Notes under the pieces: model-generated | Database searches by the model: none | What the model was told of the DNA's origin: nothing | Seen by the model: only the letters and a program-made list of their open reading frames with translations | Part shown: positions 31,519 to 56,051 of the stretch, piece by piece | Layout of the letters: every line of letters starts with the position of its first letter | Position numbering within the stretch: the first letter of the stretch is position 1 | NCBI RefSeq assembly: GCF_000612545.2 | Contig: NZ_CP097800.1 | Coordinates: forward strand, 1,984,001 to 2,048,000 | From: Streptomyces sp. PCS3-D2 | GTDB taxonomy: Bacteria > Actinomycetota > Actinomycetes > Streptomycetales > Streptomycetaceae | Reading direction: 5' to 3' | Length of the DNA: 64,000 nucleotides | Translations under genes and position numbers: made by a program

Positions 31519-31536
31519 CTCCTACCGTGGACCCCG

Positions 31537-31558
31537 TAGTGAACGACAGCGTTCACTA
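31537..31558. promoter_or_regulatory. TetR operator O2
   Basis: TAGTGAACG-ACAG-CGTTCACTA, the same 9-bp arms and 4-bp gap as O1, centred 48 bp further on and 23 bp before the exporter start. Confidence 0.85.
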
Positions 31559-31580
31559 TTTCACTTTGGGGGGATCCTCA

Positions 31581-40884: not shown

Positions 40885-41397
40885 TCAGTCGGCGGCGGAG
40901 GCGGGCACGGGGACCGGAGCGGTCCCCCCGTGCTCGCACTCTTCGGGGTGAGGCCGCGGCTCGCGCAGTTCCGCGATGGCGGTCTCGAAGTCTTCGAGGG
41001 TGTCGAACGCTTTGTAGACGGACGCGAACCGAAGGTACGCGACCAGGTCGAGCTCCTGCAGCGGGCCGAGTATGGCCAGACCCACGTCATGGGTGGTCAG
41101 CTCGGCACTGCCGGTGGCGCGCACCGCCTCCTCGACCCGCTGGCCGAGCTTGGCGAGGGCGTCTTCGGTGACCGGTCGCCCCTGGCACGCCTTGCGCACG
41201 CCGGAGATGACCTTGGTACGACTGAAGGGTTCGGTCACCCCGCTGCGCTTGATCACCATCAGCGAGGCCGTCTCCACCGTCGTGAAGCGACGGGAGCAGT
41301 CGGGGCACTGACGGCGCCGGCGAATCGACGTGCCGTCGTCCGTGGTGCGGCTGTCGACGACGCGGCTGTCGGGGTGCCTGCAGAAGGGGCAGTGCAT
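40885..41397 (-). CDS. nrdR: Transcriptional repressor NrdR
   Basis: A 170-aa regulator of ribonucleotide reductase genes. The N-terminal zinc ribbon is [17 protein letters not shown] with [15 protein letters not shown]; the ATP-cone follows ([20 protein letters not shown]) and senses ATP/dATP. The C-terminal 25 residues are acidic. The ATG at 41397 follows GGAGGG. It is upstream of nrdJ and divergent from lexA. Two NrdR-like boxes 31 bp apart lie 135-180 bp upstream of its start, fitting autoregulation of the nrdRJ operon as known in S. coelicolor. Confidence 0.97.
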
Positions 41398-41560: not shown

Positions 41561-41579
41561 AACCACTAGATCTTGGGTT
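41561..41579. promoter_or_regulatory. NrdR-like box 2
   Basis: AACCACTAGATCTTGGGTT is an imperfect palindrome centred on AGATCT, close to the NrdR consensus acaCwAtATaTwGwgt. Confidence 0.55.
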
Positions 41580-41712
41580 GCGACGGATTTAGACACCCCT
41601 GCGTGTCGCGACGTCCGATAGCCGGATACGAGGCCCCCCGGTGCCACACTGGGCACACGACCGAACGGCGGCGACCCGACCGGGAAGGGTACCGTAAGCA
41701 GCGGATCCCGAG

Positions 41713-41728
41713 TCGAACCCGCGTTCGT
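41713..41728. promoter_or_regulatory. LexA-like box, distal
   Basis: TCGAAC-CCGC-GTTCGT matches 11 of 12 arm positions of the actinobacterial SOS box TCGAAC-N4-GTTCGA. It lies about 140 bp before lexA and 316 bp before nrdR. Confidence 0.6.
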
Positions 41729-41788
41729 CGATCCGATCGCCTATACACCTCACCATGTGCCCACGCAGGCCGATCTGCGATTTTTCAC

Positions 41789-41804
41789 TCGAACGTGTGT
41801 TTGG
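41789..41804. promoter_or_regulatory. LexA box at lexA promoter
   Basis: TCGAAC-GTGT-GTTTGG, one perfect and one partial half-site, overlapping a likely -35 (TTGGCG at 41801). Fits LexA autorepression. Confidence 0.6.
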
Positions 41805-41866
41805 CGCAACCTTTCGAAAGCAACTACCGTTGTCCAGCTAGGGAGAACATTTCGAGAGGGGCCGAC

Positions 41867-42661
41867 GTGACCACCACCGCAGACAGTGCCGCCATCACTG
41901 CCCAGAACCGCTCCCAGAACCGACTCGAGCCGGTGCATGCCATGAACGACGCAAACCTGAACCCGGAGACGGACGCCGCGGTGCGCCCCGCGCGCTCGCT
42001 GCCAGGTCGACCTCCAGGCATTCGCGCCGACAGCTCCGGGCTCACGGACCGGCAGCGGCGGGTCATCGAAGTCATTCGCGACTCCGTGCAGCGCCGTGGT
42101 TACCCGCCGTCGATGCGGGAGATCGGCCAGGCGGTCGGCCTGTCCAGCACGTCGTCGGTGGCCCACCAGCTGATGGCCCTGGAGCGCAAGGGCTTCCTGC
42201 GCCGCGACCCGCACCGGCCCCGGGCCTACGAGGTGCGCGGCTCCGACCAGCCCAGCTCGCAGCCCACGGACACCACCGGCAAGCCCGCCGCCTCCTATGT
42301 TCCCCTGGTCGGCCGGATCGCGGCCGGCGGCCCGATCCTCGCCGAGGAGTCGGTCGAGGACGTGTTCCCGCTCCCCCGCCAGCTCGTCGGTGACGGGGAG
42401 CTCTTCGTCCTCAAGGTCGTCGGCGACTCGATGATCGAGGCAGCCATCTGTGACGGCGACTGGGTCACGGTCCGCCGACAGCCCGTCGCGGAGAACGGCG
42501 ACATCGTCGCCGCGATGCTGGACGGCGAGGCCACCGTCAAGCGCTTCAAGCGCGAGGACGGCCACGTGTGGCTCCTCCCGCACAACGCCGCCTACCAGCC
42601 GATTCCCGGCGACGAGGCGACCATCCTCGGCAAGGTCGTCGCGGTTCTGCGCCGGGTCTGA
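41867..42661 (+). CDS. lexA: SOS repressor LexA
   Basis: A 264-aa repressor of the DNA-damage response. About 55 variable residues precede the winged helix ([40 protein letters not shown]). The peptidase domain has the Ala153-Gly154 cleavage site in GRIAAGGPI, Ser188 in [11 protein letters not shown] and Lys225 in ATVKRFKR, so RecA-stimulated self-cleavage should work. GTG 41867 has GAGGGG 5-6 nt upstream; ATG at residue 26 (MNDANLN) is the alternative. Two LexA-like boxes lie upstream. It converges on the helicase gene with a strong hairpin between. Confidence 0.97.
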
Positions 42662-42764: not shown

Positions 42765-44735
42765 CTACGCGCCGTCGGCCTGCGCCGACGCGTCGATCGC
42801 CGCCAGCGAGCGGCGGACCTGGTTGCGGTCCGTGGTGTACCAGAAGTCCGGCAGCGTGGCCCGCAGGAAGCTTCCGTACCGGGCCGTGGCCAGGCGGGGG
42901 TCCAGGACCGCGACGACACCCCGGTCTCCCGAAGCCCGGACGAGCCGGCCCGCACCCTGGGCCATCAGAAGGGCGGCGTGCGTGGCGGCGACGGCCATGA
43001 AGCCGTTGCCCCCGTGCTCCTCCACCGACTTCTGGCGGGCGCTCATCAGCGGGTCGTCGGGACGCGGGAAGGGAATCCGGTCCATGACCACCAGCTGGCA
43101 GCTGGGGCCGGGCACGTCCACGCCCTGCCACAGGGACAGCGTCCCGAACAGGCAGGTCTTCGGGTCGGCGGCGAAGGTCTTGATCAGCTCGCCCAGCGTC
43201 TCCTCGCCCTGGAGCAGAATCGGGTTGTCGAGTCGACCGCGGAGCTCCTCGGCGGCCGCCTTGGCGCCGCGCATGGAGGAGAACAGCCCGAGGGTCCGGC
43301 CGCCCGCCGCCTCAATCAGCTCGGCGAGCTCGTCCATCATGTCGCCGCGGGTGCCCTCACGGCCCGGCGTGGCCAGGTGCTTGGCGACGTAGAGGATGCC
43401 CTGTTTCGGGTAGTCGAAGGGCGAGCCGACGTCCAGGCCCTTCCACAGGGGCACGTCGTCTCCCTCGACCCCCTCCGGCGAAAGCCCCAGGGACGCGGCC
43501 ACACCGTTGAAGTCGCCGCCGATCTTCAAAGTGGCGGAGGTCAGCACCACCGAACGGTCCTCGAAGAGCTTCTCCCGCAGCAGCCCGGACACCGACAGCG
43601 GGGCGACGCGGAGGGTGGCGCCGAAGCGGTCGTGCCGCTCGTACCAGACGACGTCGTACTCGGATCCGTTCGTGATCCGCTCCGCCACGGCGTGAATGTT
43701 CTCCACCGCCGCCAGGGCCTGCTTGCGGACCGCATCCTCGTCGTGGACGGACTTGTCACGGGTGGCGCCCATGGCCGAGATCACGTTGCGCGCGGCATCC
43801 CGCAGGGACATCAGGGCGTAGCCGAGGTCCTCGGGGATCTCTTCCAGTCGGCCCGGGAGCGCCAGCTCCATGACGCGCTCGAAGGTTTCGGAGGCGGTCT
43901 GCAGACCGTCCGCGATCTTCTCGTCGACCAGCTTCGCGGAGCGCTTCACGGCACGGTTGACCTGGCCGGGGGTAAGCTCGCCGGTGGCGACTCCGGTCAC
44001 CCGGGAAACCAGCTCGTGCGCCTCGTCGACGATCAGCACCTCATGCTGCGGCAGCACCGGAGCGCCCTCGATGGCATCGATGGCGAGCAGCGCGTGGTTG
44101 GTGACGACCACATCCGCGAGCTTGGCCCGCTCGCGCGCGGCCTCGGCGAAACACTCGGCCCCGTAGGCGCATTTCGTCGCGCCCAGGCACTCGCGGGAGG
44201 AGACGGAGATCTGCGACCAGGCCTTGTCCGAGACACCCGGTGTCAGGTCGTCGCGGTCGCCGGTCTCCGTCTCGTCGGCCCAGTCCCGCAGCCGCAGCAG
44301 GTCCTTGCCGAGCTTGCTCGTGGGAGCGGCGGCCTCGAACTGGTCGAAGAGCCCCTCCTCCTCGTCCTGCGGGGCACCTTCGTGCAGGCGGTGCAGGCAC
44401 AGGTAGTTCGACCGGCCCTTGAGCATGGCGAACTGGGGTCGGCGGCGCAGCTGCGGATGCAGTGCGTCCACCGTCCGGGGCAGGTCACGCTCGACGAGCT
44501 GCCGCTGGAGGGCCAGGGTCGCGGTGGCCACGACCACACGCTCGCCGTGGGCCAAGGCCGGCACCAGGTAGCCGAGCGACTTACCGGTGCCGGTACCCGC
44601 CTGGATGAGCCGGTGGGAGTTGTCGTCGATCGCTTCGGCGACGGCTTCGGCCATGGCCACCTGGCCGGGGCGCTCCGTACCGCCGACGGCGGAGACGGCG
44701 GCGTGCAGCAGGTCGGGGAGAGAGGGCTTCGTCAT
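42765..44735 (-). CDS. DinG/XPD-type ATP-dependent DNA helicase
   Basis: A 656-aa superfamily 2 helicase. Walker A is AGTGTGKSLGYLVPA near 48, the DEAH box is VLIVDEAHELVSR, and motifs V-VI are GTLSLWQGVDVPGPSC and GAGRLVRASGDRGVV. Cys residues in NYLCLHRLH, SRECLGATKCAYGAECF fit the iron-sulfur cluster of XPD/DinG enzymes. It would unwind DNA or R-loops in repair. Next to lexA, it is a plausible SOS-linked gene, yet no LexA box was found just upstream. Its start is 53 bp after the last siderophore gene on the same strand, so read-through is possible. Confidence 0.92.
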   Translation of the reverse strand: MTKPSLPDLLHAAVSAVGGTERPGQVAMAEAVAEAIDDNSHRLIQAGTGTGKSLGYLVPALAHGERVVVATATLALQRQLVERDLPRTVDALHPQLRRRPQFAMLKGRSNYLCLHRLHEGAPQDEEEGLFDQFEAAAPTSKLGKDLLRLRDWADETETGDRDDLTPGVSDKAWSQISVSSRECLGATKCAYGAECFAEAARERAKLADVVVTNHALLAIDAIEGAPVLPQHEVLIVDEAHELVSRVTGVATGELTPGQVNRAVKRSAKLVDEKIADGLQTASETFERVMELALPGRLEEIPEDLGYALMSLRDAARNVISAMGATRDKSVHDEDAVRKQALAAVENIHAVAERITNGSEYDVVWYERHDRFGATLRVAPLSVSGLLREKLFEDRSVVLTSATLKIGGDFNGVAASLGLSPEGVEGDDVPLWKGLDVGSPFDYPKQGILYVAKHLATPGREGTRGDMMDELAELIEAAGGRTLGLFSSMRGAKAAAEELRGRLDNPILLQGEETLGELIKTFAADPKTCLFGTLSLWQGVDVPGPSCQLVVMDRIPFPRPDDPLMSARQKSVEEHGGNGFMAVAATHAALLMAQGAGRLVRASGDRGVVAVLDPRLATARYGSFLRATLPDFWYTTDRNQVRRSLAAIDASAQADGA

Positions 44736-44788: not shown

Positions 44789-46663
44789 TCACGGCCCGTG
44801 GAGGGGGTTGGGCACGGTGCCGTATTGCACGGCGTGCGGGCGGTCGGGGCGGTCCCGGTAGCCGTCCTCGTACAGCCGGTTCCTGTTCAGGCACAGCCTG
44901 GCGATGCGCTCGCCGAGCAGGTCGAAGAGCTCGAAGCGGTCCTTGAGCTCGGGGAAACGGGCCTGATGGCGCAGAATCTCGGCCCGTGCGAGCGACCAGA
45001 AATCGTCCTCGGGGACGCCGAGGCGGTCCTCGCAGAGCGCAGACAGGTAGCGGAAGACTCCGATGAACAGCCCGGAGTGGATGAACTGCGGCAGGAAGTC
45101 GGCGGGCTCGGTGAGCAGGACGGCCCGGACCTCGTCGGGTACGGAGGCCAGCTCGGGCAGCGGCTCGTCGCTGATGTTGACGTCGTCCACGAAGTCCTTC
45201 ACGGCGAGCCGGACCGGGACATCGTGCTCATCGAAGATCACGACGGCGTTCTCGCCGTGCGGGGAGAAGACCGTGCCGTAGCGGTAGAGGAAGTGGAGCA
45301 GCGGCGGCAGGACGGCCGCGAAGAGCCGCTGCAGCCATGCGGCGGGCGTCAGACCGGAGCGGGCGACGAGCTCGGCGGTGAACGACCGGCCGCAGGGGTC
45401 GGTGTGCAGCAGTGACGCGAGCGTACGGGCGCGCTCCCCGGCCGCGAGGAGACCGGTCAGGGGCTCGCGCCAGATCGCGCCGAGGAGTTCCTTGTACTGG
45501 TACGGCACCTCGGGGAGCAGTTCGTACACGGGGTGGCGGACGGTGACCGAGGCGACTTCACCGAGCAGGATCACGCGGCACTCGTCGCGCAGGAAGGGGT
45601 CGGCGTCGCGGAGGGAGTGGATCCAGGCGGTGACGGCGGGGGCCGCGAGGGCGAGGTCCGAGGGCAGTCCGCGCCAGACCATGGTGTTGAAAACGGACAG
45701 CGGCAGCTTCACGCTGTGCCGATCGGGGCGGGTGAGGTTGAGGAAGGTGCGGATCGACTGCTGGGGCAGGCGGACGTCCGGGTCGGCGGGGAGGGGGACG
45801 AGATCCCCGGAGGCGAGTGCCGGGGCGAAGAGGGGAACGACCACCTCGTCCCACTGCCAGGGGTGCACGGGGAAGTAGAGGTAGCGCAGCGGGTCGAGGC
45901 CGCGGTCGCGGAGGGCCTGGTCGAAGGCCGCTCGGGTGGCCGGGTCGAGCTCTGCGGAGTAGAGGCGCGCGGGGTCCTCCAAGCCGCCGGTTCCGCGGTA
46001 GGCGGCAAGCGAGGTGTGGGCGGCGAGCCAGGGCAGGCGCTGGTGGCTGCGTGCCTCGGGGGCCCAGGCTGCGGTGTCGGAGGCGGACAGCCCGATCCGG
46101 CCCTTGTTGAGGACGAGCCAGGGGTGGCCGGTCTGGTGGCCTTCGAGGGCCGCGTAGTCGAGGTCGGCGAGGACGTCGGCGGTGAGGGCGGTGTGGTCGA
46201 TCCGTGCGTCCGCGGCGAGGGTGGCGCTGAGTTCGCGGACGAGGTGGCCGAGGGTGGCTCCGTCGAGTCCGAGGAGGGTGCGGGCGCGGACGAGGAAGGC
46301 GTACGGGTCCCCGAAGGAGACCGGCGCGGGCGGGGCGGGCGGAGGTGCTCCGAGGGTGATGGTGTCCGGATCGACGTGCCAACTGCCGTACGAGCGGCGG
46401 CGGGCCCGGAAGCCGAGACTGCTGCCGTCGTCGAGGGTCACGGTCCAGGCGTCACCGGCGACGGCCGGGACGGGGACGGGGGCGGGGACGGGGACGGGGA
46501 CGATGATCTCCTCGTAGGCGAATTCGGCGAGCATCTTGGCGAGGAGCCTGCGGGCGGCGGACTCCCAGGTCGGGCTGGTGAGTTCAGGTGGTGTGCAGGG
46601 GTGCTGGGGCGACGGTGGCAGGATCTTTTCCGTCGGGCCGGGGGCTGCTGGGAAGTTCGGCAC
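44789..46663 (-). CDS. NIS siderophore synthetase (IucA/IucC family), second copy
   Basis: A 624-aa NRPS-independent siderophore synthetase that would use ATP to join a carboxylic acid (citrate-type) to an amine. Core motifs: EGHQTGHPWLVLNKGRIGLS near residue 180 (the ATP-binding His-Pro/Lys/Arg loop), YFPVHPWQWDEVV, QQSIRTFLNLT, SVKLPLSVFNTMVWRGLPS and HGENAVVIFDEHDVPVRL. The C-terminal FhuF-like helical region ends in NPLHGP. A Val-Pro repeat (residues about 54-66) sits in the head. Last gene of the four-gene operon, 101 bp after the acyltransferase. Substrate class (A, B or C) cannot be fixed by eye. Confidence 0.92.
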   Translation of the reverse strand: MPNFPAAPGPTEKILPPSPQHPCTPPELTSPTWESAARRLLAKMLAEFAYEEIIVPVPVPAPVPVPAVAGDAWTVTLDDGSSLGFRARRRSYGSWHVDPDTITLGAPPPAPPAPVSFGDPYAFLVRARTLLGLDGATLGHLVRELSATLAADARIDHTALTADVLADLDYAALEGHQTGHPWLVLNKGRIGLSASDTAAWAPEARSHQRLPWLAAHTSLAAYRGTGGLEDPARLYSAELDPATRAAFDQALRDRGLDPLRYLYFPVHPWQWDEVVVPLFAPALASGDLVPLPADPDVRLPQQSIRTFLNLTRPDRHSVKLPLSVFNTMVWRGLPSDLALAAPAVTAWIHSLRDADPFLRDECRVILLGEVASVTVRHPVYELLPEVPYQYKELLGAIWREPLTGLLAAGERARTLASLLHTDPCGRSFTAELVARSGLTPAAWLQRLFAAVLPPLLHFLYRYGTVFSPHGENAVVIFDEHDVPVRLAVKDFVDDVNISDEPLPELASVPDEVRAVLLTEPADFLPQFIHSGLFIGVFRYLSALCEDRLGVPEDDFWSLARAEILRHQARFPELKDRFELFDLLGERIARLCLNRNRLYEDGYRDRPDRPHAVQYGTVPNPLHGP

Positions 46664-46764
46664 GTGACTCCTCGCAGATCGGGAACTTTGCTGCGCGACG
46701 CGGAGTTTTCGAAGGGAGAGGTGCGGAGCGACGACGACGGCGGTCGCGGCGTGCGGGGCGGTGA

Positions 46765-47472
46765 TCAGAGGAGATTGCGCAGCGCCCGCTCCCGGATCAT
46801 CAGGGCGGCGCGCTTCTCGGGGAGGTCGATTTCCGCGTGGCAGCGGAAGCCCGAGCCGAGGAAGGCCGATACGGAGGGGGTGTTGCGGATGTCCGGTTCC
46901 GCGACGACGCGTGTGCAGCGGGGACGGTTGCCGAGGACCAGGTCGGCGACGCCTCGCAGCAGTGCCGTGCCCAGCCCGCGGCCGCGGTTCGTACCGTCTC
47001 CGATGAGCAGGTGGATACCCGTGTCGTGGGGGCGCGCCGGATAATGGCGGGAGAGCGGGTCGAGGTCGGCCCGGTAGATCTCCCAGTAGCTCATCGGCAC
47101 GCCGTCGAGAACGCCGAGGCAGGGGATGCTCCGGCCGTCGCCGTCGAGCTGGGCCCGCAGGTGGGCCGCGGTGACCGCGGCGGGGCCGGCGAGCTCCCAG
47201 TAGGCGTTCACCTCAGGGTCGTTCATCCAGCCGGTGAGGAGTTCCAGGTCTCGTCCCGGCCGTACGGGTTCCAGGCGGAAGGTCCCGGCCCGGGTGGTGA
47301 CGCTGCCCCAGGTGGCGGGTGAATCGAGCAGGTCGGCCTCGGCGAGCAGGGGCAGCAGGCCTGCGTTGCGGCACGGTACGGCGGTGTGCTGGACGGCGCC
47401 GAGGGCGTAGACGGCGTCAGGGGCGTCGAGACCGGGTCCGGCGTAATCGGCGGCGGTGTCCGTGAGGCTCAT
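46765..47472 (-). CDS. GNAT acyltransferase, siderophore type (IucB-like)
   Basis: A 235-aa GNAT enzyme of the aerobactin-acetylase class. The family motif LLTGWMNDPEVNAYWELAGP appears near residue 78, and the CoA loop GDGTNRGRGLGTALLRGVAD follows. The tail (DIRNTPSVSAFLGSGFRCHA) is normal. Known relatives acylate N-hydroxylated lysine, ornithine or diaminopropane arms; here no hydroxylase gene is nearby, so it may acylate a plain amine or alcohol. ATG 47472 lies 33 bp after the upstream NIS synthetase. Third gene of the operon. Confidence 0.88.
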   Translation of the reverse strand: MSLTDTAADYAGPGLDAPDAVYALGAVQHTAVPCRNAGLLPLLAEADLLDSPATWGSVTTRAGTFRLEPVRPGRDLELLTGWMNDPEVNAYWELAGPAAVTAAHLRAQLDGDGRSIPCLGVLDGVPMSYWEIYRADLDPLSRHYPARPHDTGIHLLIGDGTNRGRGLGTALLRGVADLVLGNRPRCTRVVAEPDIRNTPSVSAFLGSGFRCHAEIDLPEKRAALMIRERALRNLL

Positions 47473-47505
47473 CGGGGGCTCTCCTCCGCGTCGGGCGCCG
47501 ACGCG

Positions 47506-49842
47506 TCAAGGGTGAAGGGGGTTGGTGATGGTGACGTAGACGGACTGGGTGTCGACGGGGCCGACGAGCTCGTCGAGGCCACCCAGGCGGGTGAGCAGGT
47601 TCGCCTTGCAGCGCAGGGTGGGCGAGTCGAGCAGCCGGGTGGGGAGCGGGCCGAGGCCCGCGGCCTTGGCGAGGAAACGGCGGAAGGCGGCGAGGAGGAC
47701 GCGTTCGTCGGCGAGGCGCTGGGAGCCGAAGGCGCCGATCAGGCCCAGCACGTTGTTGATGCCGAGGTAGTAGGCGAAGCGTTCGTCGGTGACGGGGTCC
47801 GGGACAAAGGTGTCGCTGCGGGTGCCGATTCCGGGGAGCCGTTGCTCCAGTTCGGTCCGGCGGGACTCGCGGAAGTAGTAGCCCTGGTTGTCCCGGTAGC
47901 GGCCACCGGTCGGCCATCCTGCCGGGTCGAGAAGGACCAGGGTGTTCTGCTGGTGCGCTTCGAGGGCGATGCCGGCGAGGGCGTCGAAGGCGAGGACCGG
48001 CAGGACCACGTGGTCGAGGTAGCGCAGGAACCACTCGGCGGCGACGGCCGTGGTGGTGTGTCCGGTGGCGGAGGCGAGACCGGAGACGATCTCGGCGAGC
48101 CGGGAGCGCATGGTGGTCCGGCCGGGCCGCGGTCGGGGAGAGGTGAGTGCGGCGACGCAGGCGGCGTCGTCGCCCGGGCGGAAGGGGTTGTGGCGCAGCA
48201 AGGCGTCGAGACCGGGGACGGGGGTGCCGTCCGGGGCGTCCACGGCCACCCAGGCCGGGTCGCGGACGATGTCGAAGCCCGGGTGGGCGGCCTGCCACTG
48301 CTCGGCGAGGCCGGTGCGGAGCAGCCGGTGTACCTCGACGCCCCGGTGGAGTTCCTTGCGGAGGTTCTCGCGGCGGGAGTTGGTGATGCGCAGGCCCAGG
48401 GAGAGCTTGAGCATCGCGGGGGCGCCGGGCCGGTGGACGGTGCGGACGGAGGAGGTCGGGTACCAGGCCTCCCCCTGGGGACCCAGGTCGTGCAGGAGTC
48501 CGGCGTCACGCAGGGCGGTGACGGATGGGCGTTGGAGGAGGTCGCGGGCCTGCCAGGGGTGCAGGGGAAGGGGGGTGGTGCCGTCGGGCAGCGACAGTCC
48601 GGGGGCGAGCCGGCCGATGAGCTGCGGAGCGGAGACGGGGCGGCCGCGCTCGGTCCAGGCTGATTCGGTGGCGAGGGCGGAGTGCTCGACCGCGAACCAG
48701 TGCAGGGGGAAGGAGCCGTGGAGTTCGGGTGAGTAGCGGGGAGCCTCGTTCTCGGAGAGTCCTTCGCGGCTCTTGGGGTCGGGCTGGAGGGGGTGGCCAA
48801 GGAGGAGTGACTGTTCGGCGGTGAGGAAGCGGTCCGCGCCGGCGGGGGCCGGGGCGGTGGGGCGTTCTCGCCGGTCGGCGATGAACTCGGCGGTACGGCG
48901 CACCGAGTCGGCGACCCGGCCGACGAGGTCGGCGCTGCCTCGGCCGTCGACCGCACCCTCGCGGGCGATGAGCGCGGCCAGGGTGACGGCGTCCAGGCAC
49001 GGCGCGGTGATGGGTGTGCCTTCGAGACGGGCCGGGCCGAAGCGGTGCCAGCCGGTGTGGGACCAGTGGCGGACAGCGACCAGCACGGCGGTGCCGGATG
49101 CGGGAAGGGGGATGCGCAGGGGGCTCCCGGCGGGTGCGTCAGGGCGGCGCAGGCCGGACTCTCGGATCCAGCAGCGGAGCAGGTTCTCCACCGCCGCGGC
49201 CTCGGCGGCGAGGGCCGGTTCGGGGTGGTCCAGGGGGTCGGGTCCGGCGGTGGGCTCCGGCCGGACGAAGCCCGGCCGGCCGGTGCGGGCGCGGGGCGTG
49301 CCGTCCTTCTGCCGGGGCACCGTGGTCGCCGCCCCGGCGTCGGCTGCGCCCGGCTCCGGGGGCGGCCCGCCCGGAGCGGCCTCCCGCGCCAGGGCGTACC
49401 CGGCCGTGCTCCCGCCGGCGTGGGCCCCGGTGGCGGAGCGGTGTGCGGGGGACGGCTCGACCGAGGAGATGTGCGGTTCGGCCCTGCCCGGCACCGCGTC
49501 GGGAGTTGGGGCGTTCCCGGTGCTGATGCGGGGCCCGGTGTCGGCGGGCGCGGCCTGCGCGCTGGTGGCCGGTGGACGCGCGGCCGGCGTGGCGGGCAGC
49601 TGCGGCAGCGCGGGGTCCCGTACGGCTTCGGCGTCCGCCGCGGGCGCGGGGTCGACCACCGGCGAGGGCTGTGCCGGGGCGTCGGCTCCGCCTCCGGGGA
49701 GCGACGACGCCGTGCGGGCTCGGTCGGGCAGCGGCTGCGGGTGGTCCGGCTCGCCCACGGCGGCGGGCACGGAGGCGGCGGGAGCCGGGTCTTGCGGATG
49801 GGGGCCGGACTGCATCGGGGTGGACTGGTACGGCTCTGGCAT
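47506..49842 (-). CDS. NIS siderophore synthetase (IucA/IucC family) with long N-terminal extension
   Basis: A 778-aa protein. The first 215 residues or so are Pro/Ala/Gly/Ser-rich and presumably disordered. The synthetase follows with LLLGHPLQPDPKSREGL (His about 350), LPLHPWQARDLL, SSVRTVHRPGAPAMLKLSLG, ALEAHQQNTLVLLD and GYYFRES, then a helical C-terminus. The family is usually about 580-620 residues, so the extension is extra. ATG 49842 with GAGGA 6 nt upstream is preferred over the adjoining GTG. Its KSREG loop is closer to IucC/RhbF-type enzymes than that of the other copy. Second gene of the operon, 21 bp after the aminotransferase. Confidence 0.9.
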   Translation of the reverse strand: MPEPYQSTPMQSGPHPQDPAPAASVPAAVGEPDHPQPLPDRARTASSLPGGGADAPAQPSPVVDPAPAADAEAVRDPALPQLPATPAARPPATSAQAAPADTGPRISTGNAPTPDAVPGRAEPHISSVEPSPAHRSATGAHAGGSTAGYALAREAAPGGPPPEPGAADAGAATTVPRQKDGTPRARTGRPGFVRPEPTAGPDPLDHPEPALAAEAAAVENLLRCWIRESGLRRPDAPAGSPLRIPLPASGTAVLVAVRHWSHTGWHRFGPARLEGTPITAPCLDAVTLAALIAREGAVDGRGSADLVGRVADSVRRTAEFIADRRERPTAPAPAGADRFLTAEQSLLLGHPLQPDPKSREGLSENEAPRYSPELHGSFPLHWFAVEHSALATESAWTERGRPVSAPQLIGRLAPGLSLPDGTTPLPLHPWQARDLLQRPSVTALRDAGLLHDLGPQGEAWYPTSSVRTVHRPGAPAMLKLSLGLRITNSRRENLRKELHRGVEVHRLLRTGLAEQWQAAHPGFDIVRDPAWVAVDAPDGTPVPGLDALLRHNPFRPGDDAACVAALTSPRPRPGRTTMRSRLAEIVSGLASATGHTTTAVAAEWFLRYLDHVVLPVLAFDALAGIALEAHQQNTLVLLDPAGWPTGGRYRDNQGYYFRESRRTELEQRLPGIGTRSDTFVPDPVTDERFAYYLGINNVLGLIGAFGSQRLADERVLLAAFRRFLAKAAGLGPLPTRLLDSPTLRCKANLLTRLGGLDELVGPVDTQSVYVTITNPLHP

Positions 49843-49863
49843 CACGGATCCTCGGGGTGCGGG

Positions 49864-51246
49864 TCAGCGGGGCCGGCGGGCGGCGGCCGGGATGGCGTCG
49901 GCGAGGCGATCGAGGACCGCCGCGGCCTGCTCGTCGGTCAGGGTCAGCGGCGGGAGCAGCCGGACCACGGCCCCGTGGCGGCCTCCGAGTTCGACGATCA
50001 GACCGCGTTCCAGGCACTCCTGGCGGACGGCCGCTGCGAGGGCCGGTGCGGCGGCTCCGGTGTCGGGGTCGACCAGTTCGAGGCCGATCATGAGGCCCCG
50101 GCCCCGGACGTCCCCGATGCAGGGGTGCCCGGAGGCCAGACCGCGCAGGGCCGCCAGCATCCGGTCGCCGAGAGCGGCGGCGCGTTCGGCGAGCCGGTTC
50201 TCGCGGACGAAGGCGAGCGTGGCCGTACCGGCGGCCATGGCGAGCTGGTTGCCGCGGAAGGTGCCGGCGTGGGCACCCGGGGTCCAGATGTCCAGGCCTG
50301 ATCGGTACACGATCACCGCGAGGGGCAGGCTGCCACCGATCGCCTTGGACAGGACCATCACGTCGGGCACCACCCCTGCGTGGTCCACGCCCCAGAAGGC
50401 GCCGGTGCGGCCGACGCCGGTCTGGACCTCGTCGGCGATGAGGGGGATCCCCCGCGATGCGGTGATCTCGCGCATGCGGCGCAGCCAGCCGTCCGGGGCC
50501 GGGTTGACTCCACCCTCGCCCTGCACGGGTTCGACGATCAGGCCCGCGGGCAGCGGGACGCCGCCCTTGGGGTCGTCGAGCAGGTTCTCCGTCCAGCGCG
50601 CGGCCAGTTCGGCTCCCTCGGCGCCTCCGACGCCGAACGGGCAGCGGAAGTCCTGCGGGTAGGGAAGCCTGGTCACCCGGGGCTCGGAAGCGCCTCCCGA
50701 GGCGTCCAGGGCGCCGGCGGTCATGCCGTGGTAGGCACCGGTGAAGGCGAGGAGTCCGGAGCGCCCGGTCGCGGTGCGCACCAGTTTGAGGGCGGCTTCC
50801 ACCGCGTCCGTACCGGCGGGCCCGCAGAACTGGATGCGTGCGTCGGCCGCCAGTTCGGGCGGCAGGTTGGCGAACAGCTCCGTGGTGAAGGCGTCCTTGA
50901 CCGGTGTCGCGAGGTCCAGCACGTGAAGTGGCGCGCCCGAGTCGAGGACTGCGCGGACCGCTTCGAGCACCACCGGGTGGTTGTGTCCGAGCGCAAGGGT
51001 GCCGGCACCGGAGAGGCAGTCCAGGTAGCGGCGGCCGTCGGCGCCCTCGATGGTCAGACCGCGGGCCCGCACCGGGACGATCGGCAGAGACCGGGCGTAG
51101 GTCCGGGCGGCTGACTCGCGCTGCGCCTGCCTGCGCAGAATGCCGTCCTGACCTGCTGCGCGGCTGCCCTGCGGCGGCACTTCGGAGCTCCCCTGCGGCG
51201 GGGTCCGTGTCGCTGCCGCCGCCCCGGCCTGCTCGGTGAAAGCCAC
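49864..51246 (-). CDS. Class III PLP aminotransferase (diaminobutyrate aminotransferase-like)
   Basis: A 460-aa aminotransferase, first gene of the siderophore operon. Residues from about 40 on show the class III pattern: YLDCLSGAGTLALGHNHPVV, FCGPAGTDAVEAALKLVRTA, GAYHGMTAGALDASGG, IVEPVQGEGG, LIADEVQTGVGRTG and the PLP lysine Lys301 in VLSKAIGGSLPLAV. The pattern resembles diaminobutyrate-2-oxoglutarate transaminases (RhbA/EctB-like), which supply 2,4-diaminobutyrate for siderophores. The GTG start at 51246 has GGAGGAG 8 nt upstream. No decarboxylase to make diaminopropane accompanies it. The first 40 residues are Gln/Gly-rich. Confidence 0.9.
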   Translation of the reverse strand: MAFTEQAGAAAATRTPPQGSSEVPPQGSRAAGQDGILRRQAQRESAARTYARSLPIVPVRARGLTIEGADGRRYLDCLSGAGTLALGHNHPVVLEAVRAVLDSGAPLHVLDLATPVKDAFTTELFANLPPELAADARIQFCGPAGTDAVEAALKLVRTATGRSGLLAFTGAYHGMTAGALDASGGASEPRVTRLPYPQDFRCPFGVGGAEGAELAARWTENLLDDPKGGVPLPAGLIVEPVQGEGGVNPAPDGWLRRMREITASRGIPLIADEVQTGVGRTGAFWGVDHAGVVPDVMVLSKAIGGSLPLAVIVYRSGLDIWTPGAHAGTFRGNQLAMAAGTATLAFVRENRLAERAAALGDRMLAALRGLASGHPCIGDVRGRGLMIGLELVDPDTGAAAPALAAAVRQECLERGLIVELGGRHGAVVRLLPPLTLTDEQAAAVLDRLADAIPAAARRPR

Positions 51247-51480
51247 GCGTACCGCTCCTCCCGCACTGACTGCACTTTCGGATTGCCCTTCGAACACCAA
51301 CGCTCCCCCCGTCCCCCGTACGTACCAACGACGGTGACGGCGACGGATCACGGGTGGACTCAAGATCCTTGTCATGAAGTGAGCATCAGGAACCATCGAC
51401 CCGGGCTGGGTCGTCCAAGGCGGCAGCGGCATAGTGGGGGGCTCCACTCCACGCCTCGAACCTCCAGGGGGACGAACGAC
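51247..51480. promoter_or_regulatory. Divergent promoter region, siderophore operon / lipoprotein protease
   Basis: The 234-bp region must carry the siderophore operon promoter. I found no 19-bp iron box (TTAGGTTAGGCTAACCTAA-like) on either strand, and no clear -10/-35 pair. Confidence 0.5.
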
Positions 51481-52650
51481 ATGCGACCGAACCGACCGGT
51501 CACCGCGACACTGTGCGCGGCCGCCCTCGTGCTGACCGCCGCAGCCTGCGGTCCCGGCGACGGGGAGGCCGGCGGCGACGCCAAGCCGACCGTGGCGGCG
51601 AGCCTTCCGGCCGCGGACGGGATCAAGATCCCGGACCAGCTCAAGGAGAAGCTCAGGGAGCGCGGCATCGACGTGGAGAAGTGGAAGGGGGGTGAGTGGA
51701 AGAACTGGAAGAAGGACGACTGGCTTCGCGAGGCGGGCGACTACATCAACCCGATCATCGAGGACCTCTGGGACCCGGACCGGATGCGCGACGCCGAGCA
51801 GCCGCAGCGTCCGTCCGTCGACCCGGACGCGGGCAAGGACCAGGGCGTCACCGACCCGACCCCGGCGCCGGTGGCGGCCAAGCCGGCCAGCGCGCCCTAC
51901 CACGCCAGCGTTCCGGAGTCCGGCAAGGTCTTCTTCGACGGACCCGAGGGCTCGATGGTGTGCTCGGCGACCGTGGTCAAGGATCCGGCGCACCCCGGCA
52001 AGTCGAACCTGGTCTGGACGGCGGGCCACTGCGTGCACGCGGGCAAGGCGGGCGGCTGGTACCGCAACATCGCGTTCGTCCCGTCCTACAACAACGCGGG
52101 CAAGCCGTCGGCGCAGCTCAAGGGCGCGCCGCGTGAGCAGGTGGCCCCGTACGGCGTGTGGTGGAGCGACTGGGCCCAGACCTCCGACCAGTGGATCGCC
52201 ACGGGCGGCCCGACCGGCGGCGCGGGGGCTCCGTACGACTTCGCCGTACTGCACGTGACGCCCGAGAAGGGAAGCGGCAAGTCCCTGGAGGAGACTGTCG
52301 GTTCGGCGCTCCCGGTCGAGTTCGCCGCGCCCGCCGTGCCGAAGGTCGTGGGCATCACGGCGACGGGTTACCCGGCGGCGGCCCCGTTCGACGGCCAGAA
52401 GGCCTTCCAGTGCACGGACAGGCCAGGCCGGCTGACCCTGAAGGCGAACGAGCCGGTGATGTACCGCATCGGCTGCACGATGACCGGCGGCGCCTCCGGC
52501 GGCGGTTGGGTCGCGGCGGGCGCGGACGGGCGGCCGGCGCTGGTGTCGAACACCTCGATCGGCCCGGCCAAGGCGGGCTGGCTGGCCGGACCGCGGCTCG
52601 GCCCGGAGGCGAAGGGCATCTTCGACGCGGTGAGCCGCAAGTTCAAGTAG
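51481..52650 (+). CDS. Secreted lipoprotein, trypsin-like serine protease
   Basis: A 389-aa protein with a lipoprotein signal (ATLCAAALVLTAAACG; Cys23 in the lipobox). About 110 residues rich in Lys, Trp, Asp and Pro follow (EKWKGGEWKNWKKDDWLREA), then a chymotrypsin-fold protease. Triad residues: His in VWTAGHCVHAG, Asp in YDFAVLHVTP, Ser in TMTGGASGGGWV. The serine context GASGGG is glutamyl-endopeptidase/V8-like rather than the trypsin GDSGGP. ATG 51481 has GGGGGACG upstream. It should be anchored on the outer face of the membrane. Divergent from the siderophore operon; no functional link is shown. A long hairpin follows. Confidence 0.88.
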   Translation: MRPNRPVTATLCAAALVLTAAACGPGDGEAGGDAKPTVAASLPAADGIKIPDQLKEKLRERGIDVEKWKGGEWKNWKKDDWLREAGDYINPIIEDLWDPDRMRDAEQPQRPSVDPDAGKDQGVTDPTPAPVAAKPASAPYHASVPESGKVFFDGPEGSMVCSATVVKDPAHPGKSNLVWTAGHCVHAGKAGGWYRNIAFVPSYNNAGKPSAQLKGAPREQVAPYGVWWSDWAQTSDQWIATGGPTGGAGAPYDFAVLHVTPEKGSGKSLEETVGSALPVEFAAPAVPKVVGITATGYPAAAPFDGQKAFQCTDRPGRLTLKANEPVMYRIGCTMTGGASGGGWVAAGADGRPALVSNTSIGPAKAGWLAGPRLGPEAKGIFDAVSRKFK

Positions 52651-52810: not shown

Positions 52811-54316
52811 CTACTGCTTGGCCGGCGTGTACGGTGCCAGGTCCGCCGCAAGCTCCTGGTGGACGCGTGCCTTGAGCAGAGTGCCCTCCGGGGTGTGCTC
52901 CTCGGAGATCACCTCGCCCTCGGCGTGCGCCTTGGCAACCAGCGAACCGCGGGTGTACGGCACCAGGGCCTCCACCTCGACCTCGGGCCGAGGCAGCTCG
53001 GAGTCGATGAGCGCGAGGAGTTCCTCGATGCCCATGCCCGTGCGGGCCGAGACGGCGATGGAATGGCGCTCGATCCGCAGCAGCCGCTGCAGGACGAGCG
53101 GGTCCGCGGCGTCGGCCTTGTTGATCACCACGATCTCGGGCACGTTCACCGCGCCGACCTCGCGGATCACCTCGCGCACCGCCGCCAGCTGCTCCTCCGG
53201 AGCCGGGTGCGAACCGTCGACGATGTGCAGGATGAGGTCGGAGTCGCCGACCTCCTCCATCGTGGAGCGGAACGCCTCGACGAGGTGGTGGGGCAGGTGC
53301 CGGACGAATCCGACGGTGTCGGCGAGGGTGTAGATCCGGCCGCTGGGTGTCTCGGCCCGGCGCACGGTCGGGTCGAGGGTGGCGAACAGCGCGTTCTCCA
53401 CCAGTACGCCCGCGCCCGTGAGGCGGTTGAGCAGTGAGGACTTGCCCGCGTTGGTGTAACCGGCGATGGCGACCGAGGGCACCTTGTTGCGGCGCCGTTC
53501 CTGCCGCTTGATGTCACGGCCGGTCTTCATCTCCGCGATCTCCCGGCGCATCTTCGCCATCTTCTCGCGGATGCGTCGCCGGTCGGTCTCGATCTTGGTC
53601 TCACCGGGGCCTCGGGTGGCCATGCCGCCACCGCCGCCGCCGCCCATCTGCCGCGACAGCGACTGACCCCAGCCGCGCAGCCGGGGCAGCATGTACTGCA
53701 TCTGCGCGAGTGCGACCTGCGCCTTGCCCTCTCGGGACTTGGCATGCTGGGCGAAGATGTCGAGGATCAGGGCGGTCCGGTCGACCACCTTGACCTTGAC
53801 GACGTCTTCGAGGGCAATGAGCTGGCCGGGGCTGAGCTCACCGTCGCAGACGACGGTGTCGGCGCCGCTCTCCATGACGATGTCGCGCAGCTCGCGGGCC
53901 TTGCCGGAACCGATGAAGGTGGCCGGGTCCGGCTTGTCACGGCGCTGGATCACGCCGTCCAGTACGAGAGCGCCCGCCGTCTCGGCGAGGGCGGCGAGCT
54001 CCGCGAGGGAGTTCTCCGCGTCCTGCACGGTGCCCGAGGTCCAGACGCCGACGAGGACCACGCGCTCCAGGCGGAGCTGTCGGTACTCGACCTCGGTGAC
54101 GTCTTCGAGCTCGGTGGAGAGACCGGCGACGCGGCGCAGGGCCGCGCGCTCGGAGCGGTCGAACTGGTCGCCGTCCCGGTCTCCGTCGATCTCGTGGCTC
54201 CAGGCGACGTCCTCTTCCATCAGGGCATCGGCCCGAAGGCTCTCGGTGAAGCTCTGCGGTTCACGCGCGTCGGTCGCGTCCCGCTCGTCCTGGGAAGCGG
54301 AAGAAGAGGAGGTCAT
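52811..54316 (-). CDS. hflX: GTPase HflX
   Basis: A 501-aa ribosome-associated GTPase that splits stalled ribosomes under stress. The N-terminal HflX domain includes VLVGVWTSGTVQDAENSLAE and FIGSGKARELRD; the linker has the Gly run RQMGGGGGGGMATRGPGETK. G motifs follow: GYTNAGKSSLLN (G1), DTVGFVRHLP (G3), NKAD (G4). About 65 acidic residues precede the HflX domain, an extension usual in actinobacteria. ATG 54316 is the start. It is downstream of the M1 peptidase gene by 133 bp on the same strand and converges on the lipoprotein protease. Confidence 0.95.
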   Translation of the reverse strand: MTSSSSASQDERDATDAREPQSFTESLRADALMEEDVAWSHEIDGDRDGDQFDRSERAALRRVAGLSTELEDVTEVEYRQLRLERVVLVGVWTSGTVQDAENSLAELAALAETAGALVLDGVIQRRDKPDPATFIGSGKARELRDIVMESGADTVVCDGELSPGQLIALEDVVKVKVVDRTALILDIFAQHAKSREGKAQVALAQMQYMLPRLRGWGQSLSRQMGGGGGGGMATRGPGETKIETDRRRIREKMAKMRREIAEMKTGRDIKRQERRRNKVPSVAIAGYTNAGKSSLLNRLTGAGVLVENALFATLDPTVRRAETPSGRIYTLADTVGFVRHLPHHLVEAFRSTMEEVGDSDLILHIVDGSHPAPEEQLAAVREVIREVGAVNVPEIVVINKADAADPLVLQRLLRIERHSIAVSARTGMGIEELLALIDSELPRPEVEVEALVPYTRGSLVAKAHAEGEVISEEHTPEGTLLKARVHQELAADLAPYTPAKQ

Positions 54317-54449: not shown

Positions 54450-56051
54450 TCACACCCTTTTCCCGCCGGGCGCAGCCCCGCCCGGTGCGGCCATGCCCGG
54501 TGCGGCCATGCTCGGTGCGGCCAGGCTCGGTGCCTGCTTGCCCCGCGCGGCCCGGTCCGCCGCCGGGGCGCTCCACTCCGGGTGCCCCGGCATCGGCGGG
54601 GTCTTCGTCCCGTACAGCCACGGCTCCAGGAAGGCTCCGAGGTCGCGACCCGCCTCCTGCGAGGCCAGGCGGACGAAGTCGGCCGTGCCCGCGACCCCGT
54701 CCCGGTACCGCGTGACCCAGCGGCGTTCGATCCGCTCGAAGGCGGGGGCGCCGATCTCCTGTCGCAGTGCGTAGAGGATCAGCGCGGCGCCGTCGTAGAC
54801 CACCGGCCGGAACAGCCCGATCTTCTCGCCGGGCGCCGCGGCCTTCGGGGCGGCCGGGGGGCCGCCCGCCGCCCGCCACTGGTCGGAGCGCTGGTACGCC
54901 TCGCGCATGCGCCGCTCCAGGGAGTACGTGCCCAGGCCGTCCGCGTACAGGGCCTCGTACCAGGTGGCGTGTCCCTCGTTGAGCCACAGGTCGGACCAGG
55001 TCCGGGGGCTGACGCTGTCGCCGAACCACTGATGGGCGAGCTCGTGGACCATCACCGCCTCGACGTACCACTCGGGGTAGCCCTCGCCGGAGAACAGGCT
55101 GCTCTCGAAGAGCGAGAGGGTCTGCGTCTCCAGCTCGAAGCCGGTCGTCGCCCGCGCGATCAGCACCCCGTAGTTCTCGAACGGGTAGCGGCCGACGCGC
55201 TCCTCCATCCACTCGATGTGGCCGGCGGTCTTCTTCAGCCAGGGGTCGAGCCGCTGCCGGTCGGCGGCGGGCACCACGTCGCGCAGCGGCAGCCCGTGCG
55301 GTCCGGTCCCGTGGACGACGGCGGAGCGGCCCACGGAGACCTGGGCCAGCTCGGTGGCCATGGGGTGGCGGGTCCGGTACGTCCACGTCGTGGTGGGGCC
55401 CGTGCGCCGGGCAGGGCCTGCCTGGAGGCCGTTGGCGACGGCTGTGAGCCCGGTGGGTGCGCTGATCCGGAAGGTGAAGAGGGCCTTGTCGGCGGGGTGG
55501 TCGTTGCAGGGGAACACGCGGTGGGCGGCGTCGGCCTGGTTGGCCATGGCCAGACCGTCCTCGGTGGGCACCCAGCCGCCGTCCCCGCGACCGCGCGGGT
55601 CGCTGGTGTGCCGGACCGTGATCCGCAGCGCGCCGCCCTCCGCCACCGCCCGCGGTGGGGTCAGTACGAGGTCCTCCCCGACGCTCTCGAAGCGTGCGGG
55701 CTCCCCGTTCACCTCGGCGGACGCCACAGTGCCGTGGGTGAAGTCCAGGTTGACGCGCTCCAGCGGCTCCAGTGCCCGGGCCTCGATGACGGTGACCGCG
55801 TCGAGCGGGGTCAGGTTGTCCTTGTACGTGAAGGACAGGTCGTACGCGAGCACGTCGTAGCCGGGGTTCCCCAGCTCGGGGAAGAGGCGGTCCCCGATGC
55901 CCAGGGGCTTCGGCGGGGGCAGTACCGCGGCGACGAGGGTGAGGGAGGCCGCGGCGAGCAGGGCGGCGCGCAGGCGGGGCGAGGAGAGCTGCATCCACCA
56001 CCGCTTACCAGCGCCCGCCACGGGACGGCGTACGGCGCGCGACGGGGCCAC
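54450..56051 (-). CDS. M1-family aminopeptidase-like zinc metallopeptidase, secreted
   Basis: A 533-aa peptidase. A signal/anchor segment lies near residues 20-45 (LRAALLAAASLTLVAAVLPP). The beta-sandwich head and then the gluzincin domain follow, with MVHELAHQWFGDSVS (His336 and the catalytic Glu) and LWLNEGHATWYEA (third ligand Glu). The usual GAMEN substrate motif is not seen; RYPFENYGVLI occupies that region. The last 25 residues are an Ala/Pro/Gly/Met repeat coded by a 15-bp tandem array. The GTG at 56051 (AAGG upstream) is taken; ATG 55994, just before the signal core, is a good alternative. Confidence 0.88.
   Translation of the reverse strand: MAPSRAVRRPVAGAGKRWWMQLSSPRLRAALLAAASLTLVAAVLPPPKPLGIGDRLFPELGNPGYDVLAYDLSFTYKDNLTPLDAVTVIEARALEPLERVNLDFTHGTVASAEVNGEPARFESVGEDLVLTPPRAVAEGGALRITVRHTSDPRGRGDGGWVPTEDGLAMANQADAAHRVFPCNDHPADKALFTFRISAPTGLTAVANGLQAGPARRTGPTTTWTYRTRHPMATELAQVSVGRSAVVHGTGPHGLPLRDVVPAADRQRLDPWLKKTAGHIEWMEERVGRYPFENYGVLIARATTGFELETQTLSLFESSLFSGEGYPEWYVEAVMVHELAHQWFGDSVSPRTWSDLWLNEGHATWYEALYADGLGTYSLERRMREAYQRSDQWRAAGGPPAAPKAAAPGEKIGLFRPVVYDGAALILYALRQEIGAPAFERIERRWVTRYRDGVAGTADFVRLASQEAGRDLGAFLEPWLYGTKTPPMPGHPEWSAPAADRAARGKQAPSLAAPSMAAPGMAAPGGAAPGGKRV
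54481..54540. repeat. 15-bp tandem repeat in the M1 peptidase tail
   Basis: CCCGGTGCGGCCATG twice, then CTCGGTGCGGCCAGG and a decayed fourth unit; codes Ala-Pro-Gly/Ser-Met-Ala type repeats at the C-terminus. Confidence 0.85.

Follow-up and report, generated by a model that had tools for sequence, protein, structure and literature searches.

A four-gene siderophore-type operon, csb, lies on the minus strand, from position 51246 down to 44789, of the 64,000-nucleotide stretch of Streptomyces sp. PCS3-D2 DNA analyzed here (the window). Sequence comparison suggests that it probably encodes one half of a six-step citrate hydroxamate pathway of the rhizobactin 1021/schizokinen family, the other half being a decarboxylase/N-hydroxylase gene pair 3.7 Mb away in the same 7.6-Mb genome. 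Relatives of both genes missing from the operon stand side by side at this distant place, and therefore a single product is likely made by the two loci jointly. At first we had favored stepwise reduction of the operon as the principal explanation; it lost that place once the pair had been found. In the following, genomes, loci and contigs are numbered G, L and C, respectively; G000 is the window's own genome.

The csb operon and the distant gene pair

The operon encodes an aminotransferase, a synthetase for siderophores made independently of nonribosomal peptide synthetases (NIS synthetase), an IucB-like acyltransferase and a second NIS synthetase:

49864..51246, minus strand: csbA, 460 amino acids, predicted 2,4-diaminobutyrate (DABA) transaminase, counterpart of RhbA; PF00202
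47506..49845, minus strand: csbB, 779 amino acids, NIS synthetase, IucA/RhbC-like; PF04183 and PF06276
46765..47472, minus strand: csbC, 235 amino acids, GNAT N-acyltransferase, counterpart of RhbD/IucB; PF13523
44789..46663, minus strand: csbD, 624 amino acids, NIS synthetase, DesD/IucC/RhbF-like; PF04183 and PF06276

The initial annotation had likened this order to rhbA-C-D-F, and in the rhb operon on pSymA of S. meliloti 1021 each gene indeed matches its own counterpart best (identities: csbA-RhbA 55%, csbB-RhbC 38%, csbC-RhbD 38%, csbD-RhbF 39%). Consistent with the same annotation, no decarboxylase or N-hydroxylase gene, the counterparts of rhbB and rhbE, lies inside the operon, whose intergenic gaps measure 18, 33 and 101 bases, and no siderophore transporter was found among the scanned neighbor genes, which make up part of the window's genes. 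The closest transporter-like gene in this set encodes an MFS protein (31527-33134) and lies ~12 kb from the operon.

CsbA scores 479.8 bits against TIGR00709, the DABA transaminase family (curated cut-off 401.6), and its closest solved structure by sequence is 6rl5, a DABA transaminase. By likeness, CsbB appears to be a type A (citrate) synthetase: IucA is its top match among solved structures (178 bits), and the motifs aligned to IucA and AcsD are retained. CsbD resembles type C synthetases, with DesD as the top match (347 bits), and CsbC matches MbtK (119 bits). The start of csbB is uncertain because the N-terminal ~200 residues, which are of low complexity and rich in proline and alanine, are missing or different in most relatives aligned. 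The length of this extension varies widely among relatives, and it occupies the place that the decarboxylase gene takes in six-gene operons.

The operon is the locus that was published for Streptomyces sp. YIM 121038 under the name csb; by gene table, the gene order and the dinG-lexA-nrdR flank are identical. The accessible part of that report (PMC9600172) remarks on the absence of an iucD-like monooxygenase. It describes a CsbC homolog that acts in vitro as an N-succinyltransferase, transferring succinyl from CoA to many primary amines including putrescine and ornithine, and that generally used acetyl-CoA much less well; the product was not detected, and attempts to disrupt csbC were unsuccessful. 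In the accessible parts of the literature searched, no product is reported for the csb cluster or its S. coelicolor counterpart, only mentions of expression. This counterpart, given in the initial annotation as SCO5799-5801, appears in the accessible part of PMC7324645 as a putative siderophore locus; the match was made through the literature.

The genome search for an N-monooxygenase that the initial annotation had proposed yielded a hydroxylase gene beside a decarboxylase gene. The pair lies at positions 5743581-5746456 of contig C1 of G000, the PF00282 decarboxylase preceding the PF13434 N-hydroxylase, with genes for an M1 peptidase, a 5'-nucleotidase, a SIMPL protein and pyruvate kinase as neighbors. 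Patterns that we take to be the pyridoxal-phosphate lysine motif of the decarboxylase and the nucleotide-binding motifs of the hydroxylase were found in both proteins, respectively. The decarboxylase is 47-51% identical to in-operon decarboxylases of relatives (Catenulispora, L068, L117), 42% to RhbB and 37% to DesA, and its top NCBIfam model is the RhbB DABA decarboxylase. For the hydroxylase, the corresponding values are 48-55% for the in-operon enzymes of the same three clusters, 40% for RhbE and 39% for DesB. Among 26 pair loci inspected (the window genome's own, L150-L169 and L185-L189), the decarboxylase gene adjoins the hydroxylase gene in 24, and a pyruvate kinase gene lies in the stretch in 21.

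In phylogenetic trees, the pair hydroxylases (28 rows) and the pair decarboxylases (26 rows) each form one clade. Both clades join the actinobacterial in-operon relatives via starred branches that exclude DesB/DesA as well as the rhb and archaeal genes; the hydroxylase tree comes from a quick search with the Shimodaira-Hasegawa-like approximate likelihood ratio test only and has long branches on some rows, including DesB. By these trees, the pair appears orthologous to the in-operon genes of relatives and apart from DesA/DesB. For CsbB, CsbD, the decarboxylase and the hydroxylase, though not for CsbC, the L117 cluster is a nearer relative than that of Catenulispora, which fits a common source. 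We infer that both genes may have departed from the csb operon rather than arrived separately.

Of the two options in the initial annotation, supply of the missing steps from elsewhere has thus gained ground, since the pair was found and groups with in-operon genes, and a carboxylate or amide compound built on DABA is now less likely. The annotation had set against the latter the case that the operon feeds a known hydroxamate through hydroxylase and decarboxylase genes elsewhere; such genes do exist, and no known hydroxamate has been established as the product.

We also considered that DesA and DesB might provide an N-hydroxy diamine in trans, from which the csb enzymes would make a citrate compound. 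DesB-type genes are frequent in the same genomes, and the nearest solved structure to CsbD is DesD, which would suit such a route. The closer relationship of the pair to in-operon genes argues against it, as do G002 and G010, which retain both csb synthetases without desD; moreover, G002 has a single hydroxylase among the matches listed, of the pair type, and a DABA transaminase would serve no purpose. We regard this route as very improbable.

If the csb operon and the pair act together, CsbA would yield L-2,4-diaminobutyrate, which the distant decarboxylase would convert to 1,3-diaminopropane. The distant hydroxylase would form the N-hydroxy amine and CsbC would acylate it, probably with succinate; CsbB would couple the free amine to citrate and CsbD would attach the second arm. 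The predicted product is citrate bis(N-hydroxy-N-succinyl-diaminopropane) with an [M+H]+ of 537.2039 or, if acetyl is used, schizokinen itself with an [M+H]+ of 421.1929.

A second, more distant copy of the pair exists in G005 (L183) and G024 (L184), 58-59% and 63-65% identical to the G000 pair. Both loci have an M1 peptidase gene nearby (window 54450-56051; L022 4485-7250), possibly by chance. A search of the S. coelicolor literature for the pair, using guessed locus tags, gave nothing relevant.

Gene content, selection and upstream sequences at the csb site

The operon is flanked by the following genes:

42765..44735, minus strand: dinG, DinG/YoaA-type helicase
41573-42661, plus strand: lexA, beyond dinG
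40885-41397, minus strand: nrdR, beyond lexA
51481-52650, plus strand: divergent gene without a Pfam match, on the csbA side
52811-54316, minus strand: hflX, scoring above the cut-off of the HflX model

The divergent gene and hflX are visible on the same side in most Streptomyces loci. Gene maps were drawn for 101 loci, namely 80 named loci (the best of 512 relatives), 20 stretches from G001-G020, and L028. By csb gene letters, the site holds ABCD in 48 of them, ABC in 33, BCD in 6 and BC in 3; six have the six-gene operon, four keep the decarboxylase and hydroxylase genes in a cut or rearranged cluster, and one has csbB alone. Both hflX and dinG are visible in 78 loci, 77 of which are from Streptomyces (45 ABCD, 28 ABC, 2 BC, 2 BCD), and in none of these 77 does a decarboxylase or hydroxylase gene lie at the site. 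The conservation of the operon at this site across the 77 loci is more than chance. In Catenulispora, an operon with all six genes occupies this dinG-lexA-nrdR site. In four of the three-gene loci (L050, L052, L057, L134), the csbA alignment is split near residue 395 by 240-390 additional bases.

On a tree built from dinG, hflX and lexA (78 rows; FastTree, 26 of 75 inner branches starred), the distribution of csbD requires three changes and that of csbA four. The three-gene state includes one 26-row clade, in which a single row is BC. By this tree, csbD appears to have been lost at least three times; lineages without it would make a one-armed compound of predicted m/z 365.1191 or have the last step carried out by DesD. 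The most persistent csb gene is csbB. In L069 (G016, C412), a genome of the same order, a csbB-like synthetase gene stands alone between hflX and dinG.

The ratio of nonsynonymous to synonymous substitution rates (dN/dS) was calculated over aligned stretches by the Nei-Gojobori method for sequence pairs with dS of 0.05-0.8. Median values were 0.22 for csbA, 0.33 for csbB, 0.26 for csbC and 0.32 for csbD, similar in ABCD and ABC lineages, compared to 0.11 for dinG, 0.16 for hflX and 0.48 for the divergent neighbor. The distant hydroxylase and decarboxylase genes gave 0.38 and 0.52. No internal stops occur in the aligned stretches of csbA-D or the pair. These values indicate purifying selection on csbA-D and on the pair, with function retained.

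The stepwise losses of csbD and csbA and the solitary csbB-like gene of L069 could also be taken to mean that the csb siderophore operon is in decay and survives partly by virtue of the protection from antibiotics that N-succinylation by CsbC would give. The intact reading frames and the low dN/dS, alike in both lineage types, speak against decay, and csbB, which would be of no use for resistance, persists most. This explanation therefore appears improbable.

The loci that keep decarboxylase and hydroxylase genes differ from the reduced ones in their upstream sequences. Iron boxes of the DmdR type, with 15-18 of 19 matches, stand near 10 of 12 such loci; ten of the 12 scored 18, 18, 16 (five times), 15, 13 and 12, and L193 and L197 scored 15 and 18. 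For the latter two, the full 16-18 kb were scanned and the boxes lie ~1.5 kb upstream. Of the 12, L071 (score 12) comes without the upstream part, L065 and L070 are a single sequence, and fewer than six of the genes are visible in L056, L063, L117, L193 and L197. Among 92 reduced csb loci, at least three of which (L075, L108, L109) end before the csbA upstream region, none has an iron box; scores of 10-13 are as in shuffled sequence (11-14 at best in 20 single-base shuffles of one 7.3-kb stretch). Likewise, the window contains no iron box within three mismatches, its best score being at shuffle level, and the genome's own des locus, serving as positive control, has a perfect box (19 of 19). 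Upstream of the pair, 21 loci, including a truncated one, gave no iron box (best score 12). Since neither half has the iron box of the relatives, induction by iron starvation in the usual way is unlikely, and the predicted pathway likely lies outside this control. For the DmdR1 regulon of S. coelicolor, a study from 2025 (PMC12161575) contains, in the accessible part of its main text, no SCO57 tag and, of SCO58 tags, only SCO5826 and SCO5830.

A conserved element does precede the reduced operon:

51314..51371, minus strand: promoter-like conserved block upstream of csbA, consisting of CAAGGATCTT, CCGTGATCC and GTCGTTGGTACGTACGGGG

Allowing up to 4 substitutions, the last element, GTCGTTGGTACGTACGGGG, occurs upstream of csbA or csbB in 48 of 49 ABCD, 7 of 33 ABC and 2 of 6 BCD loci, and in none of 10 loci keeping decarboxylase and hydroxylase genes. 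In the 21 loci of the pair, the csb block was not found upstream within the same limit; two chance-like matches had 5 and 6 substitutions. Patterns for LexA, Zur, NrdR, ArgR, NuR and SigR gave nothing consistent upstream of csbA, with one SigR-like match in 88 loci.

Co-occurrence of csb and the pair

We searched for pair-type hydroxylases in 60 csb-bearing genomes (G000-G011, together with 48 taken from the 80 named loci). Assigned by score and frame in the match list, with the 26 loci above inspected, such a hydroxylase was found in 58 of the 60 among the matches listed. The draft genome G008 has csbB without it, and in G010 it lies in two frames, without the decarboxylase.

A survey of 151 Streptomyces genomes of ≥95% completeness gave a csbB match in 143, in a few cases possibly a fragment (G190) or a second cluster, and a hydroxylase match at an E value of 1e-150 or better in 142. 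Five of the eight csbB-less genomes (G083, G145, G181, G183, G193) also lack the pair; the DesB-type hits are very similar in four of these, and the five may belong to a single lineage. In csbB-less G070, the hydroxylase gene is kept and no decarboxylase gene was found beside it. G012 has csbB, csbC and a csbD fragment, with csbA and dinG not in the stretch; its pair is broken, the two places being 4.6 Mb apart. The association of csbB with the pair gave a Fisher p of 3.8e-5 (table 137, 3; 6, 5), treating genomes as independent of kinship. Here the pair was counted as present in G152 (a piece at a contig end), G097 and G125 (both partial), and as absent in G012 (broken), G099, G166 and G172 (hydroxylase of a second cluster), G008 and G135; alternative classings gave p of 1e-5 and 3e-4.

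The strongest competitor is a reduced pathway, in which the four genes alone make a non-hydroxamate and the pair serves something else. An example would be citrate bearing a single N-succinyl-2,4-diaminobutyrate or two, the two-armed form having an [M+H]+ of 593.1937. Achromobactin is a DABA-citrate chelator without hydroxamates and sets a precedent for such a compound. The absence of hydroxylase and decarboxylase genes at all 77 Streptomyces loci with both flanks, the lost iron box, the occurrence of csb without the pair in some genomes and the acylation of plain amines such as putrescine and ornithine by the CsbC homolog (PMC9600172, accessible part) would all agree with it. On the other side stand the orthology of the pair to in-operon genes suggested by the trees, its adjacency and its retention in nearly all csb genomes examined, as well as the five genomes without both loci and the two with joint decay. 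On balance, a reduced pathway seems unlikely.

Several observations nevertheless weigh against the two-locus pathway. The scores of the pair genes are far under the NCBIfam equivalog cut-offs (285 of 900 and 382 of 700 bits), and their substrates therefore remain predictions only. The dN/dS of the pair decarboxylase is rather high (0.52). Given how frequent both loci are in the genus, their co-occurrence by itself is weak evidence. Among the matches listed, each of the 60 csb-bearing genomes is represented by some N-hydroxylase, so other hydroxylases could serve too; a csb-bearing genome with none, which would have excluded hydroxylation in trans, did not turn up among the 60. In the survey, csbB occurs without an intact pair in six of 151 genomes (G008, G012, G099, G135, G166, G172): G135, a 700-contig draft, has no hydroxylase of the pair kind at an E value of 1e-60, and G099 and G172 have csbB with the hydroxylase of a second cluster instead of the pair, as does G166 by coordinates only. 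Conversely, two csbB-less drafts (G084, G088) keep the hydroxylase, and the pair is still present in lineages without csbD. Joint control of csb and the pair is unsupported, as they share no block or visible regulator site. Finally, according to the accessible part of PMC9600172, the authors' search for a csb product failed, and CsbC takes non-hydroxylated amines in vitro, as a hydroxylase-free pathway would require.

Going further, we tentatively consider that nearly all Streptomyces may possess a two-locus pathway of the schizokinen family off iron control, making a novel citrate hydroxamate with N-succinyl groups that serves other ends than ordinary iron scavenging, with a one-armed product in the large three-gene clade; this wider proposal is possible rather than probable. 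A csbB match in 143 of 151 Streptomyces genomes stands in contrast to the lack of any product report in the literature searched. If two loci are needed, expression of the four genes alone, or screening for iron-repressed compounds only, would miss the product. If true, this would illustrate that a core biosynthetic operon can survive being divided and released from its metal control. The two-locus prediction supplies exact masses and simple gene removals as tests.

Comparison with known systems

The accessible part of PMC9600172 likens csb to aerobactin and leaves the distant pair, the six-gene relatives and the iron-box loss unmentioned. New beyond that report are the one-to-one match to rhb, the six-gene operon of Catenulispora, the distant pair, the iron-box pattern and the csbD losses. 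With aerobactin iucABCD, csb shares a first synthetase nearest to IucA and an IucB-like acyltransferase, but it differs in its DABA transaminase and in CsbD, for which DesD is a closer match than IucC. The aerobactin pathway uses lysine and IucD. With desferrioxamine desABCD, the likeness lies in CsbD and in the analogous steps performed by DesA and DesB; in contrast, des has a perfect iron box, and DesA and DesB are on other tree branches than the pair. The desferrioxamine pathway is not known to include a DABA transaminase or a type A citrate synthetase.

In addition to its csb locus, G006 has a second cluster (L056, C7:338000-357900) comprising csbD, decarboxylase, csbB, csbC and hydroxylase genes, with an 18/19 iron box upstream and adjoining genes that, by their sequence starts, are ABC-transporter- and MFS-like. 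In G013 (L063), G099 (L193) and G172 (L197), a cluster combines csbA, csbB and csbD with decarboxylase and hydroxylase genes, and tblastn found no csbC-like acyltransferase in it. Two more divergent NIS synthetase genes lie at C1:352487-354687 of G000 (L004, L005, L020), and similar divergent pairs exist in several relatives.

The likeness extends to complete six-gene operons. That of Natronorubrum aibiense again gives one-to-one best matches for csbA, B, C and D, at 57, 36, 41 and 44% identity, and its second gene is a PF00282 decarboxylase. The Catenulispora operon shares neighbors and gene order with csb, at 49-65% identity over the four shared genes, but it also contains the decarboxylase and hydroxylase genes, and an iron box precedes its csbA by ~150 bp. 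Compared with the rhizobactin 1021/schizokinen system, csb has A, C, D and F in the same order, and the counterparts of B and E are present in the same genome. It differs in that B and E lie elsewhere, the iron box is absent, csbD is often lost, no transporter adjoins among the scanned neighbors, and the homologous acyltransferase prefers succinyl-CoA.

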